A stretch of DNA of 33,832 nucleotides. Source: Desulfurococcaceae archaeon (GTDB lineage: Archaea > Thermoproteota > Thermoprotei_A > Sulfolobales > NBVN01). Under the pieces are notes generated by a model. It worked only from the letters and a program-made list of their open reading frames with translations, made no database searches and had not been told where the DNA came from. The DNA lies in contig JAJHQR010000012.1 in assembly GCA_020833255.1 (NCBI GenBank), positions 1-33,832 on the forward strand, written 5' to 3'. The translations under genes were made by a program, and so were the position numbers. Of the stretch, positions 18,578-22,727 are shown in pieces (the stretch's first letter is position 1; each line of letters starts with the position of its first letter).

Positions 18578-21505
18578 TTAGTCTGAAGTACCGACCTTAC
18601 CTAACTTCTCCGCAACAGCTGCTTGAGCTGCCGCTAGCCTGGCCACGACTATTCTGAAAGGTGACGCGCTCACGTAATCTAAGCCGGCCTTATGCAGGAA
18701 CATTATGGATTCTGGGTCGCCGCCGTGCTCCCCGCATATACCTACCTCAAGGCTTGGATTAGCTTTCTTACCCTCCCTAGTACCAAGCTCTACTAAAGCC
18801 CCAACACCCACAACGTCTATCGTCTGGAACGGGTTCTCGGGCAGTATCTCGTATTCTAGGTACTGAGGCATGAACTTATTCTCGACATCGTCTCTGCTGA
18901 AGCTGAACGTGGCTTGAGTTAAGTCGTTCGTGCCGAAGCTGAAGAAGTCTACTTCCTTAGCTATCTCGCCGGCGGTCAAGCAAGCCCTGACCGTCTCGAT
19001 CATAGTACCTATCTTCACGTCGCTTAAGTCAATACCGTACTCCCTCTCCACGTCTTTTATCGCCGGTATTATTGCTCTCTGCTTCACGAACTTGACCTCG
19101 TTGACGTGAGCTACCTGAGGTATCATTATCTCTAGGACCGGCTTATAACCCTCTTTCTTAAGTTCGGCGGCTGCCTCAAGCATGGCTCTCGATAGGTAGT
19201 AGTAGAATTCAGGGTATGTCACGCCAACCCTAACGCCTCTGTGACCCATCATCGGGTTATGCTCCTTAAGTACGGACACCCTCTTATATAGCGCCTCAAG
19301 CTTCTTCACCCTGTCCTCAAGCTCCTTAAGAACGTTCGGGGTTAGGTCCTTAGCTACCTGAGAGTTAGCTAGCTCCAGATACGCTGTCTTAACCTCGTAG
19401 AGCTCCTTCAACACCTCCTCCGGCGCGGGCAGGAACTCATGTAGTGGCGGGTCGATCAGCCTTATCACTACGGGGAGTCCGTCCATTATCTTAAGCATTT
19501 CCTTGAAGTCCGGCTTAATCATCTCAACCAGTTTCTTCAGGTGTTCTTCTCTAGCCTCCCTAGACTCAGAGAGTATCACGTTCCTGAGAGCTTCAAGCCT
19601 CTCCGGCTTCCTAAACATCCTCTCAATCCTCAGCAACCCTATGCCCTCAGCGCCGAATTTCCTAGCTATTAACGCGTCCTCCGGCACGTCCGCGTTAGCT
19701 CTAACACCTAACTTCCTGACGCTGTCAGCCCACTTAAGAAGCTTGTCTAGCTCAGGTATTATCTCAGGTTCCACGGTCGGTACCCTGCCAACGTAGACGT
19801 TACCTGTATTCCCGTCAATCGTTATCCAATCACCCTCCCTCACTACCCTGCCGTTAACCTCAAACACTTTCTTCTCGTAGTCTATCTTAATCGCCTCAGC
19901 ACCGACTACGGCTGGCTTACCGATCCCTCTAGCAACTACCGCCGCGTGTGAGGTCATGCCTCCCTTAGAGGTCAGTATCCCTACTGCGGCGTAGAACCCG
20001 TGCACGTCGTCAGGCTTTGTCTCAACCCTGACTAAAATGACTTTCTTACCTTCCCTCGCTTTAAGAACTGCCGTGTCAGGATCGAAAACAACCTCACCGC
20101 TAACTGCTCCCGGCGATGCCGGCAACCCCTTAGCCACGGGCTCCGCCTTAGCTTTAGGATCTACTCTCGGGTAGAGCAGTTTCAGCACTATGTCTGGCGA
20201 AACCCTCATTATAGCTTCTTCCTTACTTATTATGCCTTCCTCAGCTAACTCAACAGCTGTCTTAACCCTGGCTACGGGAGTCATCTTAGCTACTCTATTC
20301 TGGAGGAAGTATAGCTTGCCCCTCTCTATAGTAAACTCTATATCCATCACGTCCTTATTCAGTTTCTCGAGTAGTTTGCCGGCTCTTATCAATTCCTCAT
20401 ATATTTCCGGCATCCTCTCCTTAAGCTCCTCCAAGCTTAGGGGTGTCCTAATACCTGCTACCACGTCCTCTCCTTGAGCGTTAGGCAGGAACTCTCCGTA
20501 AGGCTTGTTCTCGCCGGTAGCGACGTCTCTGGTGAAGTACACGCCAGTGCCTGAGTCCCAACCCATATTACCGAAGACCATGGTCACGATATTGACGGCT
20601 GTGCAGTCAGCTATGTCCGGGGTTATGTTGTTAGCCATCCTATAGAATATCGCTCGCGGGTTCATCCAAGACCTGAAGACAGCCTTTATCGATAGCTCCA
20701 GCTGCTTCCACGGGTCTTGCGGGAACTCACCCCAATTCTTCCTGATGACCTCCTTATATTCCTCGACAACCCTCTTCAAGTACTCAACCGAGAGCTTCCA
20801 CAGACCCGGCGCCACGTCCGCCGGCGGCTGCGCGTCAAGCCTTAAAGTATATTTAGGATACCTAGACTTAACGGCTTCTAACTCGCTCGCGTAGAGCTTC
20901 TCAGCCTGCTTCTTAAACTCCTCCTCATACTTATCGAAGACCTCATTAAATAGCTCCTCGTTAATCTCGAGAACTATCCTACCAAACATCGCTAGGAATC
21001 TCCTATAAGCGTCGTAAGCAAACCACTCGTTCCCGGTTAGTCTTGCAAGACCCTTAACTACCTCATCATTTATTCCTAGGTTGAGGACTGTGTCCATCAT
21101 GCCTGGCATTGAGACCGCGGCACCGGACCTAACGGATACCAGCAACGGGTTCTCAGGAGAGCCGAAGACCTTGCCGGTCTTCTCCTCCAGCTTCCTCATG
21201 TAGTCACGAACCTGCGTCATCAACCCGTCAGGCAGTTCCATACCTCTTATTATGTCCCATATCTTCTTGATTAGCTGGTCCCTGACCTGCGGCGGCGGGT
21301 TTCTCTCAAGTTCCTTAACGATAGCGTCAATCTCCTCACGTCTGCAGACGTAGAATTCCCTGCACGCTTGAGTAGTTATTATGAAGCCCGGAGGTACTGG
21401 AAGACCTAGCTGAGTCATCTGAGCTAAGGAAGCGCCCTTACCCCCCAACAACTTCTTATCTTTCCAATTAGCTTCCTCAAAACTGTAGACGTACTTCACA
21501 CCCAT
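18578..21505 (-). CDS. ppdK: Pyruvate, phosphate dikinase
   Basis: 975 residues. N-terminal ATP-grasp domain (GGKGASLAQMTQLGLPVPPGF...), central phospho-His domain with GGMTSHAAVVARG (His about 520) and C-terminal PEP/pyruvate barrel (GAEGIGLLRIERMF, GHRGVRVG, SFGTNDLTQATFSFSRDD, catalytic Cys in GICGEHGGDP near residue 924). The domain order is that of PPDK rather than PEP synthase. It is somewhat longer than the usual 870-900 residues because of a charged helical stretch (about residues 700-760) in the C-terminal domain. It interconverts pyruvate + ATP + Pi and PEP + AMP + PPi. Start ATG 21505, with a TATA (TTTAAAAG, minus strand, 21542-21549) upstream. Confidence 0.93.
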   Translation of the reverse strand: MGVKYVYSFEEANWKDKKLLGGKGASLAQMTQLGLPVPPGFIITTQACREFYVCRREEIDAIVKELERNPPPQVRDQLIKKIWDIIRGMELPDGLMTQVRDYMRKLEEKTGKVFGSPENPLLVSVRSGAAVSMPGMMDTVLNLGINDEVVKGLARLTGNEWFAYDAYRRFLAMFGRIVLEINEELFNEVFDKYEEEFKKQAEKLYASELEAVKSRYPKYTLRLDAQPPADVAPGLWKLSVEYLKRVVEEYKEVIRKNWGEFPQDPWKQLELSIKAVFRSWMNPRAIFYRMANNITPDIADCTAVNIVTMVFGNMGWDSGTGVYFTRDVATGENKPYGEFLPNAQGEDVVAGIRTPLSLEELKERMPEIYEELIRAGKLLEKLNKDVMDIEFTIERGKLYFLQNRVAKMTPVARVKTAVELAEEGIISKEEAIMRVSPDIVLKLLYPRVDPKAKAEPVAKGLPASPGAVSGEVVFDPDTAVLKAREGKKVILVRVETKPDDVHGFYAAVGILTSKGGMTSHAAVVARGIGKPAVVGAEAIKIDYEKKVFEVNGRVVREGDWITIDGNTGNVYVGRVPTVEPEIIPELDKLLKWADSVRKLGVRANADVPEDALIARKFGAEGIGLLRIERMFRKPERLEALRNVILSESREAREEHLKKLVEMIKPDFKEMLKIMDGLPVVIRLIDPPLHEFLPAPEEVLKELYEVKTAYLELANSQVAKDLTPNVLKELEDRVKKLEALYKRVSVLKEHNPMMGHRGVRVGVTYPEFYYYLSRAMLEAAAELKKEGYKPVLEIMIPQVAHVNEVKFVKQRAIIPAIKDVEREYGIDLSDVKIGTMIETVRACLTAGEIAKEVDFFSFGTNDLTQATFSFSRDDVENKFMPQYLEYEILPENPFQTIDVVGVGALVELGTREGKKANPSLEVGICGEHGGDPESIMFLHKAGLDYVSASPFRIVVARLAAAQAAVAEKLGKVGTSD

Positions 21506-21620: not shown

Positions 21621-21650
21621 AGTGGTGGGGGGCGGGTCTACTGAGGGCGA
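21621..21650 (-). ncRNA. Putative GC-rich trans-pairing extension of the tRNA 5' half
   Basis: Directly follows tRNA position 37 on the minus strand and begins TCGCCCTCAGTAGACCCG, continuing C-rich. Published split tRNAs carry such a GC-rich extension, complementary to one in front of the 3' half, so that the two form a bulge-helix-bulge splice substrate. The complement is not in this window. Its C-rich end also pairs imperfectly with the tRNA's own 5' strand, so a self-folded form is possible. Confidence 0.4.
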
Positions 21651-21689
21651 TATGAGCCCCGCGGGCTAACCTGGCTACCCCACCCCGCT
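21651..21689 (-). tRNA. 5' half (positions 1-37) of initiator tRNA-Met(CAU), 3' half absent
   Basis: Minus strand from 21689: acceptor strand AGCGGGG (A1, as in archaeal initiators), T8 G9, D-arm GGGT / GCCC with A14, G15, G18 G19 and A21 in place, then anticodon stem CGGGG with the initiator G29-G30-G31 run, and loop CTCATA with C32, T33, anticodon CAT and A37. The match stops exactly at 37, the canonical archaeal intron/split site. The expected continuation (CCCCG, T-arm, CCCCGCT acceptor) is not found downstream as far as ppdK, nor upstream as in permuted genes. Most likely a split tRNA gene; an orphan fragment left by an integration event is the alternative. Confidence 0.72.
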
Positions 21690-21725
21690 ACTCCGTCCCC
21701 CCATTCATTATTCAACATTACGAGG

Positions 21726-21733
21726 TTTTTAAG
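21726..21733 (-). promoter_or_regulatory. Possible TATA box for the tRNA 5' half
   Basis: CTTAAAAA on the minus strand, straddling the stop of the DUF1152 gene, is centred 41 bases before tRNA position 1. It would start a transcript about 15 bases upstream of the mature 5' end. Confidence 0.35.
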
Positions 21734-22727
21734 CATTAGATGATTTCTTAACAAGGGACCTGAGCAGTCCCCACTCAGGACTTGTTTCAGGGCCTACACC
21801 GTAGATTTTCGAAGCCATTATCTCCAGGTCTAGCTCCGTCGGTATGCCTAGCTTCTTAGAAATGCTCCACGCCTCAGCCAGTGAGTTGGTTCTGCATATC
21901 ATTTGAGCCAGCTTATTTACCTTCATGACGTCCTCACTCTTAAGAAGGAATGTGACGAGGGTTAACGCGTTTATCTCTATGGTTCTGCTACCCCCTCTTA
22001 TAGCTTTACTCCCTACGTAACCCTTAAGCGCTAGGTAGGGTGCTCTACTAGCTTCCGTCTTAACACGATCTATTAAGCCCTCGTAGAGGTCTACGTGGTG
22101 TTCCCAGAAACCTACGACACCTACGTAACCCCCCATACTAATCAACTCACTCACCTTCCTCAAGACTTGGTCTTGAGGGAGTTCCCCGTCAGCACCTAAC
22201 GCGGCCACGCCGACAAGCCCTCCAACCCTCGCCGTAGCCGCCAGAGTTATTGAGTCTGTTAGGGGAGACCATAGATTATCTTCCCAGCCTTCAGCGAGGA
22301 TATCGCCGCCTACATCTAGATCGATTAAGACGTTCTCCCCACCCCCAACCAACTCATTAAAACACTCGTAAACCCCGCTAACACTCCTCTCAAGAGTTAC
22401 TGCAGGAACCTCTTTCTTGAGCTTCCCTGCCACGTAAGCTGTGTGCGGCTTGAAAGAATACCTACCGCGTACGACGTAAGTATCTTCATTAACCCACACG
22501 CACTTACCGAACCTCGCGTTCCTGATATTAGCTACGGGCACAGGGCCTGGGTATGGGTCAACAACCCATCTCTCCCATAAGACTCCCAGAGGGCGGCACT
22601 CACGAACACCTACGAGTTCTTCAAGAACCTTACAGAAAACGAAAGCTGATATCACGTCCCCTCCGCCGCCGGCACCCACAACCACTACTTCCTCAGCTTC
22701 ACGCAACCTAGCGAGGTAATTACTCAA
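21729..22727 (-). CDS. DUF1152 family protein
   Basis: 332 residues. The N-terminal GAGGGGDVISA loop near residue 18 looks like a nucleotide- or phosphate-binding turn and is typical of DUF1152 (COG4034), an archaea-rich family with no assigned reaction as far as I know. A DVGGDILAEGWEDNLWSPLTDS segment is also conserved. Start TTG 22727 follows GGGATGAT on the minus strand; a T-rich TATA-like stretch lies about 35 bases upstream. It is leftward, downstream of the nucleotidyltransferase gene with a 78-base gap containing a hairpin. Confidence 0.75.
   Translation of the reverse strand: MSNYLARLREAEEVVVVGAGGGGDVISAFVFCKVLEELVGVRECRPLGVLWERWVVDPYPGPVPVANIRNARFGKCVWVNEDTYVVRGRYSFKPHTAYVAGKLKKEVPAVTLERSVSGVYECFNELVGGGENVLIDLDVGGDILAEGWEDNLWSPLTDSITLAATARVGGLVGVAALGADGELPQDQVLRKVSELISMGGYVGVVGFWEHHVDLYEGLIDRVKTEASRAPYLALKGYVGSKAIRGGSRTIEINALTLVTFLLKSEDVMKVNKLAQMICRTNSLAEAWSISKKLGIPTELDLEIMASKIYGVGPETSPEWGLLRSLVKKSSNA

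Follow-up and report, generated by a model that had tools for sequence, protein, structure and literature searches.

Can the tRNA that starts every protein of a cell be encoded in two pieces that meet only as RNA? The question is raised by the window analysed here, a 33,832-nucleotide stretch of the genome of a Desulfurococcaceae archaeon (contig JAJHQR010000012.1), which carries on its minus strand the first half of an initiator tRNA-Met(CAU) (iMet) and nothing of the second. We conclude that this locus is very probably (probability about 0.9) the gene for the 5' half of an initiator tRNA that is split and trans-spliced, its halves having been dispersed from a tandem arrangement. In what follows G000 is the window's own genome, G001-G004 are its congeners and G005 represents the nearest sister genus.

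The two halves and the predicted joined tRNA

21651-21689, minus strand: 5' half of initiator tRNA-Met(CAU), positions 1-37 (A1, D-arm, C27-G31, CUCAUA), 39/39 identity to the intact iMet of G005

Read from 21689 to 21651, the minus strand gives AGCGGGGTGGGGTAGCCAGGTTAGCCCGCGGGGCTCATA, which corresponds to positions 1-37 of an archaeal initiator tRNA, 39 nucleotides (nt) being used for these positions because of insertions in the D-loop. All 39 agree with the same positions of iMet in G005, where the gene is intact and intronless, and the identity to tRNA stops exactly at the canonical splice position 37/38, so both the assignment and the end point given in the original prediction, an earlier reading of the window from its sequence alone, are borne out. 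This half is the sole copy in the genome. ARAGORN and Rfam (at the gathering threshold) call no tRNA in the window, since half of the tRNA is absent there.

Where is the other half then? A search of G000 (1.33 Mb in 77 contigs, a 99.1% complete draft) with a T-arm plus acceptor pattern revealed an orphan T-arm at G000:C14:9889, and the 3' half of iMet is found at G000:C14:9875-9913, on a contig other than the window's, in the context GATGGGTCTACTGAGGGTAGTGTGAG/ACCCCGAGGTCGGTGGTTCAAATCCACCCCCCGCTACCA. The original prediction had found no 3' half in the window and had expected one elsewhere, preceded by a complementary GC-rich leader; it is located on C14 with such a leader. Joined at 37/38, the halves give a complete tRNA of 78 nt, which is predicted to fold as a cloverleaf and shows 100% identity with the intact iMet of G005. 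The joined molecule has the features of an archaeal initiator tRNA-Met, namely A1:U72, an anticodon stem with three G:C pairs at its base (G29-31 with C39-41, GGG/CCC) and the CAU anticodon, and its CCA is encoded. G1:C72 acceptors were read by eye on the other CAU tRNAs of G000 examined.

Two findings had been named that would speak against a split tRNA, the lack of a matching 3' half and an intact initiator gene elsewhere in the genome. The 3' half exists, and no intact gene was found when G000 was searched with the joined 78-nt tRNA: both halves are recovered at 100% and the remaining matches are elongator tRNAs or short partials. An intact copy is also absent from the four congeners, including G002, which is assembled in only 4 contigs. 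Separate loci for the 5' and 3' parts, with no intact copy in the draft or in the congeners, are one mark of a split tRNA. We also considered a permuted tRNA gene, with the 3' part upstream of the 5' part in one transcript, which is ruled out by the location of the halves on different contigs.

Predicted pairing between the halves and the splice junction

21634-21648, minus strand: trailer segment G-CCCUCAGUAGACCC, pairing in trans with the leader of the 3' half (G000:C14, GGGUCUACUGAGGG-U); 14-nt perfect complement, with covariation
21623-21632, minus strand: CCCCCC-ACCA, 3' strand of an outer stem on the 5'-half transcript, pairing with 21697-21702
21697-21702, minus strand: leader segment GGGGGG, 5' strand of the outer stem; conserved position, 6 base pairs (bp) in G000

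Beyond position 37 the 5' half continues as UCG-CCCUCAGUAGACCC, and the leader of the 3' half holds GGGUCUACUGAGGG, its perfect complement over 14 nt, whereas the longest complement found among 15,000 random 32-mers of G000 is 12. This exact-complement test is the one we rely on; the null pool of the energy-only duplex test contained the locus itself. A complementary GC-rich trailer and leader are a second mark of split tRNAs. The earlier suggestion that the C-rich extension also pairs with its own half is right for one of its two parts: CCCCCC-ACCA (21623-21632) can pair with GGGGGG of the leader (21697-21702), whereas the 14-nt segment (21634-21647) pairs with the 3' half. When the five genomes of the genus are compared, standard pairs fill 98.6% of the cells of the 15-bp trans helix, and at three pairs both sides have changed (UA to CG, AU to GC and UA to CG), while sliding the partner by 1-3 columns lowers the pairing to 24-52%. 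One compensatory event sets G001 apart from G000 and G003, and in all three the halves lie on different contigs.

All five genomes (G000-G004) are split at 37/38. G002 and G004 show the canonical bulge-helix-bulge (BHB) register, with 3-nt bulges and a central helix of CUCA with UGGG or UGAG, lying within 2-4 kcal/mol of the energy minimum. As a minimum-energy fold, the strict BHB fails in the window's own clade (G000, G001 and G003). We treat the motif in this clade as probably relaxed rather than absent, because the junction ends, CUCAUA/U...UGUGAG/ACCCC, are identical to those of the 37/38 cis intron of a related genus, g8. The machinery associated with split tRNAs is encoded in G000: two splicing-endonuclease genes (PF01974; open frames of 213 and 171 aa), which appear to fit the two-subunit type, and one RtcB ligase gene. 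The two-subunit enzyme has been described as tolerating relaxed motifs (PMC3978253).

How the gene may have come apart

21729-22727, minus strand: DUF1152 gene (PF06626, E=2.4e-79), constant upstream neighbour of the iMet 5' half, adjoining it in G000-G005
21724-21733, minus strand: TATA-like box CTTAAAAACC of the 5'-half gene, overlapping the DUF1152 stop codon; same motif in the same place in G001-G005
18578-21505, minus strand: ppdK (pyruvate phosphate dikinase; from its open reading frame and relatives), downstream neighbour, context only

The 5' half sits in a 223-nt gap between ppdK and the DUF1152 gene. As a downstream neighbour ppdK is specific to G000, other genes being found there in the other congeners. 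In G002 and G004 the order on one contig is DUF1152, 5' half, 3' half and TIM-barrel gene (PF01261 in the G000 copy), with the halves 235 nt (G002) or 147 nt (G004) apart. In G000, G001 and G003 a block of DUF1152 and 5' half and a block of 3' half and TIM-barrel gene lie on different contigs, and so, whether tandem or dispersed, each half keeps its flanking gene, DUF1152 in the case of the 5' half and the TIM-barrel gene in that of the 3' half. The ppdK tree groups G002 with G004 (99) within the genus (97), with the intact G005 as sister (100). The simplest account would be that tandem halves came first and a rearrangement between them followed, a direction that we infer from the shared neighbours. 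G005 has the TIM-barrel gene divergent from DUF1152, followed by iMet and a proteasome gene, and this layout would be compatible with an inversion of the DUF1152-iMet segment.

CTTAAAAACC is found upstream of the leader stem in all 5' halves and in the intact G005 gene, and TTTATAAG lies ~50 nt ahead of position 38 in all five 3' halves, in otherwise diverged sequence; at the level of motifs each half seems to have its own promoter. How would the tRNA be made? A TATA promoter would drive each half separately, the 5' half downstream of DUF1152 and the 3' half upstream of the TIM-barrel gene. The GC-rich 3' trailer of the 5' half would anneal to the 5' leader of the 3' half through 14 perfect pairs and a wobble, positioning the halves with a relaxed BHB at 37/38, where the two-subunit splicing endonuclease would cut after A37 and before A38. 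RtcB would then ligate the ends into the only initiator tRNA found in G000. The dispersed layout itself would result from a genome rearrangement between tandem halves, in the state of G002 and G004, with the flanking genes retained.

Several points weigh against this picture. Transcription, cleavage, ligation and the order of the steps are what we infer from the halves, their complementarity, covariation and synteny and from the lack of any intact copy found. G000 is a 77-contig draft, 99.1% complete, and an intact gene could lie in a gap. The covariation comes from five related sequences with few independent events, and the measure of pairs changed on both sides was reached in 41 of 500 shuffles. 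Finally, the BHB register of G000, G001 and G003 contains a U33xU mismatch, and as a result the strict BHB lies 11-12 kcal/mol above the nearly continuous helix that the energy model favours there.

Alternatives have to be weighed as well. The one that survives best concerns not the window but its tandem relatives, in which both halves might be carried by one transcript with a cis intron of 147-235 nt, so that trans-splicing would be restricted to the dispersed clade. The common strand and short distance in G002 and G004 would allow this, and in Aeropyrum pernix the tandem split tRNA-Asp gave a read-through product at a low level; however, northern blots in the same species gave separate halves for this layout (PMC3218864), a TATA-like box stands as far ahead of the 3' half as it does in the dispersed genomes and the 5' half already has its own closing CCCCCC-RCCA. 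We consider a cis intron in these two genomes rather unlikely. It is far less probable still that the window holds an orphan fragment or integration remnant, i.e. the scar of a mobile element, with a functional intact iMet in an unassembled gap. In archaea, integration is common at tRNA genes, and partial copies of tRNAs do occur (PMC3218864); G000 itself has a stray 3' piece of tRNA-Ser(GCT) (C21:1449-1518, L034). Complementarity to a distant locus would not, however, be expected to persist in a scar, whereas here the matching 3' half with its complementary leader exists and the same split is present in four other genomes, with compensatory changes and without an intact copy in any of them. 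The least credible alternative is an assembly artefact, in which a single long-intron gene was broken or misjoined in the draft: although the halves of G002 and G004 do share a contig, 235 and 147 nt apart, those of G000 lie well inside contigs with different flanking genes, and the separate assemblies of G001 and G003 repeat the separation with the same neighbours. The reading of a split, trans-spliced initiator tRNA, as originally predicted, is upheld by the 3' half, the same split in all four congeners and the covarying trans helix.

An outer acceptor-like stem

What is the role of the C-rich end of the 5' half? In G001, G002, G003 and G004 the 5' half likewise ends in the 3' strand of the outer stem followed by RCCA. 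The stem has 7 bp in G001, G002 and G004, 6 bp in G000 and one mismatch in G003. Across the order, a 7-bp helix between leader and trailer (with at most one wobble) surrounds iMet at 54 of the 72 loci tested (L053-L079 and L199-L237 among them), although these 54 are not independent, as some are near duplicates within one genome family. The helix is placed 6 nt before A1 in 54/54 cases and directly precedes RCCA, and it occurs in eight sequence types, such as GGCGGGG/CCCCGCC, GGGGGGC/GCCCCCC and GGAGGGT/ACCCTCC; several of the misses carry the helix without RCCA. It was found at 0/26 other tRNAs of G000. Judged from its sequence, the outer stem resembles a further acceptor stem, and one may guess that it serves for protection or as a signal for processing. 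In the window's genus the 3' strand and RCCA are placed at the end of the 5' half. We found no paper on this stem in the open-access literature (PMC texts), which was the scope of our search.

The intact, intronless gene of G005 (L053/L151, G005:C2:325722-325799) keeps the leader GGGGGG without the trailer strand of the outer stem, and might be a re-fused copy.

The initiator gene across the family and the order

L139:2966-3823, L163:4798-5973, L166:69-1211 and 1398-2054, L214:3607-4719, L147:1456-2577, L215:4991-5569: LAGLIDADG-type open reading frames (ORFs) between iMet pieces

The initiator 5' end was detected in 27 of the 31 genomes sampled in the family, and the gene was seen intact only in G005. 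Seven genomes of g8 have iMet matches as one place with ~16 extra nt, and the three that were read fully (G025, G011 and L073=G029) have a 37/38 intron. Cis interruptions at 30/31, 37/38 and 59/60 are found in G007, G009, G010 and G017. Elsewhere the pieces are separate: at 59/60 in G006, at 30/31 and on opposite strands in G013 and G020, and at 37/38, >1 kb apart, in G019 and G021. In four genomes iMet is apparently in three pieces, with junctions 30/31 and 59/60 in G008 and G012 (L161 and L166) and 37/38 and 59/60 in G023 and G026 (L164 and L165). At the 13 junctions of separate pieces that were tested, 11 from the family, including junctions of the four three-piece genomes, and two from other families of the order, the tails contain perfectly complementary stretches of 9-18 nt, and their duplexes are predicted at -33 to -45 kcal/mol. 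One cis intron cannot account for pieces that lie on opposite strands; same-strand pieces may be either split genes or long introns.

Many of the iMet pieces have between them an ORF of ~190-395 aa with LAGLIDADG-like motifs. When eight of these ORFs were compared with Pfam LAGLIDADG_3, the two of the 59/60 type scored above the cut-off (E 1e-13 and 2e-7), three from 30/31 or 37/38 sites fell below it (E 0.002-0.008) and three had no match, and a PDB sequence search with one 37/38 ORF gave no match. There is apparently a different type of ORF at each junction. In the order sample, 155 of the 214 genomes have an initiator 5' end and only 85 have positions 1 to ~45 uninterrupted; these are undercounts, as the exact patterns used miss divergent genes, notably in family f11.

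These data allow a broader scenario, for and against which we see equal odds. The iMet gene of the order may be a repeated target of LAGLIDADG-type mobile genes at three fixed sites, 30/31, 37/38 and 59/60, whose insertion would turn cis introns into separate transcription units and so produce initiators in two or three pieces, later dispersed by rearrangement as in the window. The outer 7-bp stem with RCCA would close the transcript that bears the 5' leader, protecting or licensing it, and in the window's genus its 3' strand would have moved onto the 5' half.

Three minor observations belong here. Very closely related genomes differ in their first junction, 30/31 in G012 (L166) and 37/38 in G023 and G026 (L164 and L165), pointing to fast turnover. 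G007 has two copies of its three-interruption iMet (L154 on C47 and L155 on C92), which differ slightly in the 59/60 insert and one of which is at a contig end, so they may be a duplicate or strain variation. Further apparent three-piece initiators are found at L215 and L216 (G111 and G113).

Comparison with known split tRNAs

The closest known case is Nanoarchaeum equitans, whose tRNA-iMet(CAU) is split at 37/38 (Table 1 of Chan et al. 2011, PMC3218864): same tRNA, same junction and dispersed halves, of 39 and 36 nt there and 39 and 39 nt in G000. However, N. equitans is a nanoarchaeotal symbiont with a reduced genome, while the lineage described here belongs to Thermoproteota and its sister genus has an intact gene, and therefore an independent origin is likely. 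Also unlike N. equitans, the 5' half here ends in the outer stem with ACCA. The tandem split tRNA-Asp of Aeropyrum, with a 37/38 junction, a GC-rich stem of ~14 bp and a promoter between the halves, has the layout of G002 and G004 (PMC3218864), but it is another tRNA and its halves are adjacent, in contrast to those of G000 on separate contigs.

Tri-split tRNA-Gly of Caldivirga maquilingensis (PMC4033280, PMC4090602) is made from three transcripts with complementary tails, as would be iMet of G008, G012, G023 and G026; there it is a glycine tRNA with shared, interchangeable pieces, whereas the relatives studied here have a single initiator with junctions at 30/31, 37/38 and 59/60, and the window's genus has two pieces. 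The permuted tRNA-iMet of Thermofilum pendens (59/60; PMC3218864, PMC3978253) is likewise a disrupted initiator in Thermoproteota and shares the 59/60 junction with relatives of the window, but it comes from one transcript with the 3' part first and not from separate loci. Fragmentation of a tRNA gene was also linked with mobile DNA for tRNA-Thr of Caldiarchaeum subterraneum (PMC3293823), where the element bears a recombinase; here LAGLIDADG-type genes are found at the junctions of relatives and none in the window's genus.

No paper on a split initiator tRNA in Thermoproteota, on such a step from tandem to dispersed halves or on such a family series was found in the same literature. As far as this search reaches, three things are new: the split iMet in Thermoproteota; the graded series within one family (intact, cis-intron, LAGLIDADG-type genes at junctions, tandem, three-piece and dispersed); and the order-wide outer 7-bp stem with RCCA around iMet, with its 3' strand on the 5' half in G000. 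The window locus thus belongs to a type already known, from which it is set apart by three things: an outer stem carried on the 5' half, a traceable step from tandem to dispersed, and the surrounding initiator-specific series associated with endonuclease-type genes. If the joining suggested by the sequence takes place, no protein can be started in this organism unless two RNAs have been trans-spliced. It has long been debated whether split tRNAs are relics of ancient origin or genes broken recently; with tandem and dispersed states side by side in one genus and an intact gene in its sister, the recent direction becomes directly testable, and the endonuclease-type genes at the junctions are a concrete candidate agent of tRNA gene fragmentation.

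Apart from iMet, G000 carries a second tRNA-Ala(GGC)-like copy whose acceptor stem is mismatched (G000:C14:5758-5831, L036) and which, like the stray tRNA-Ser piece, is possibly an integration scar or a pseudogene.
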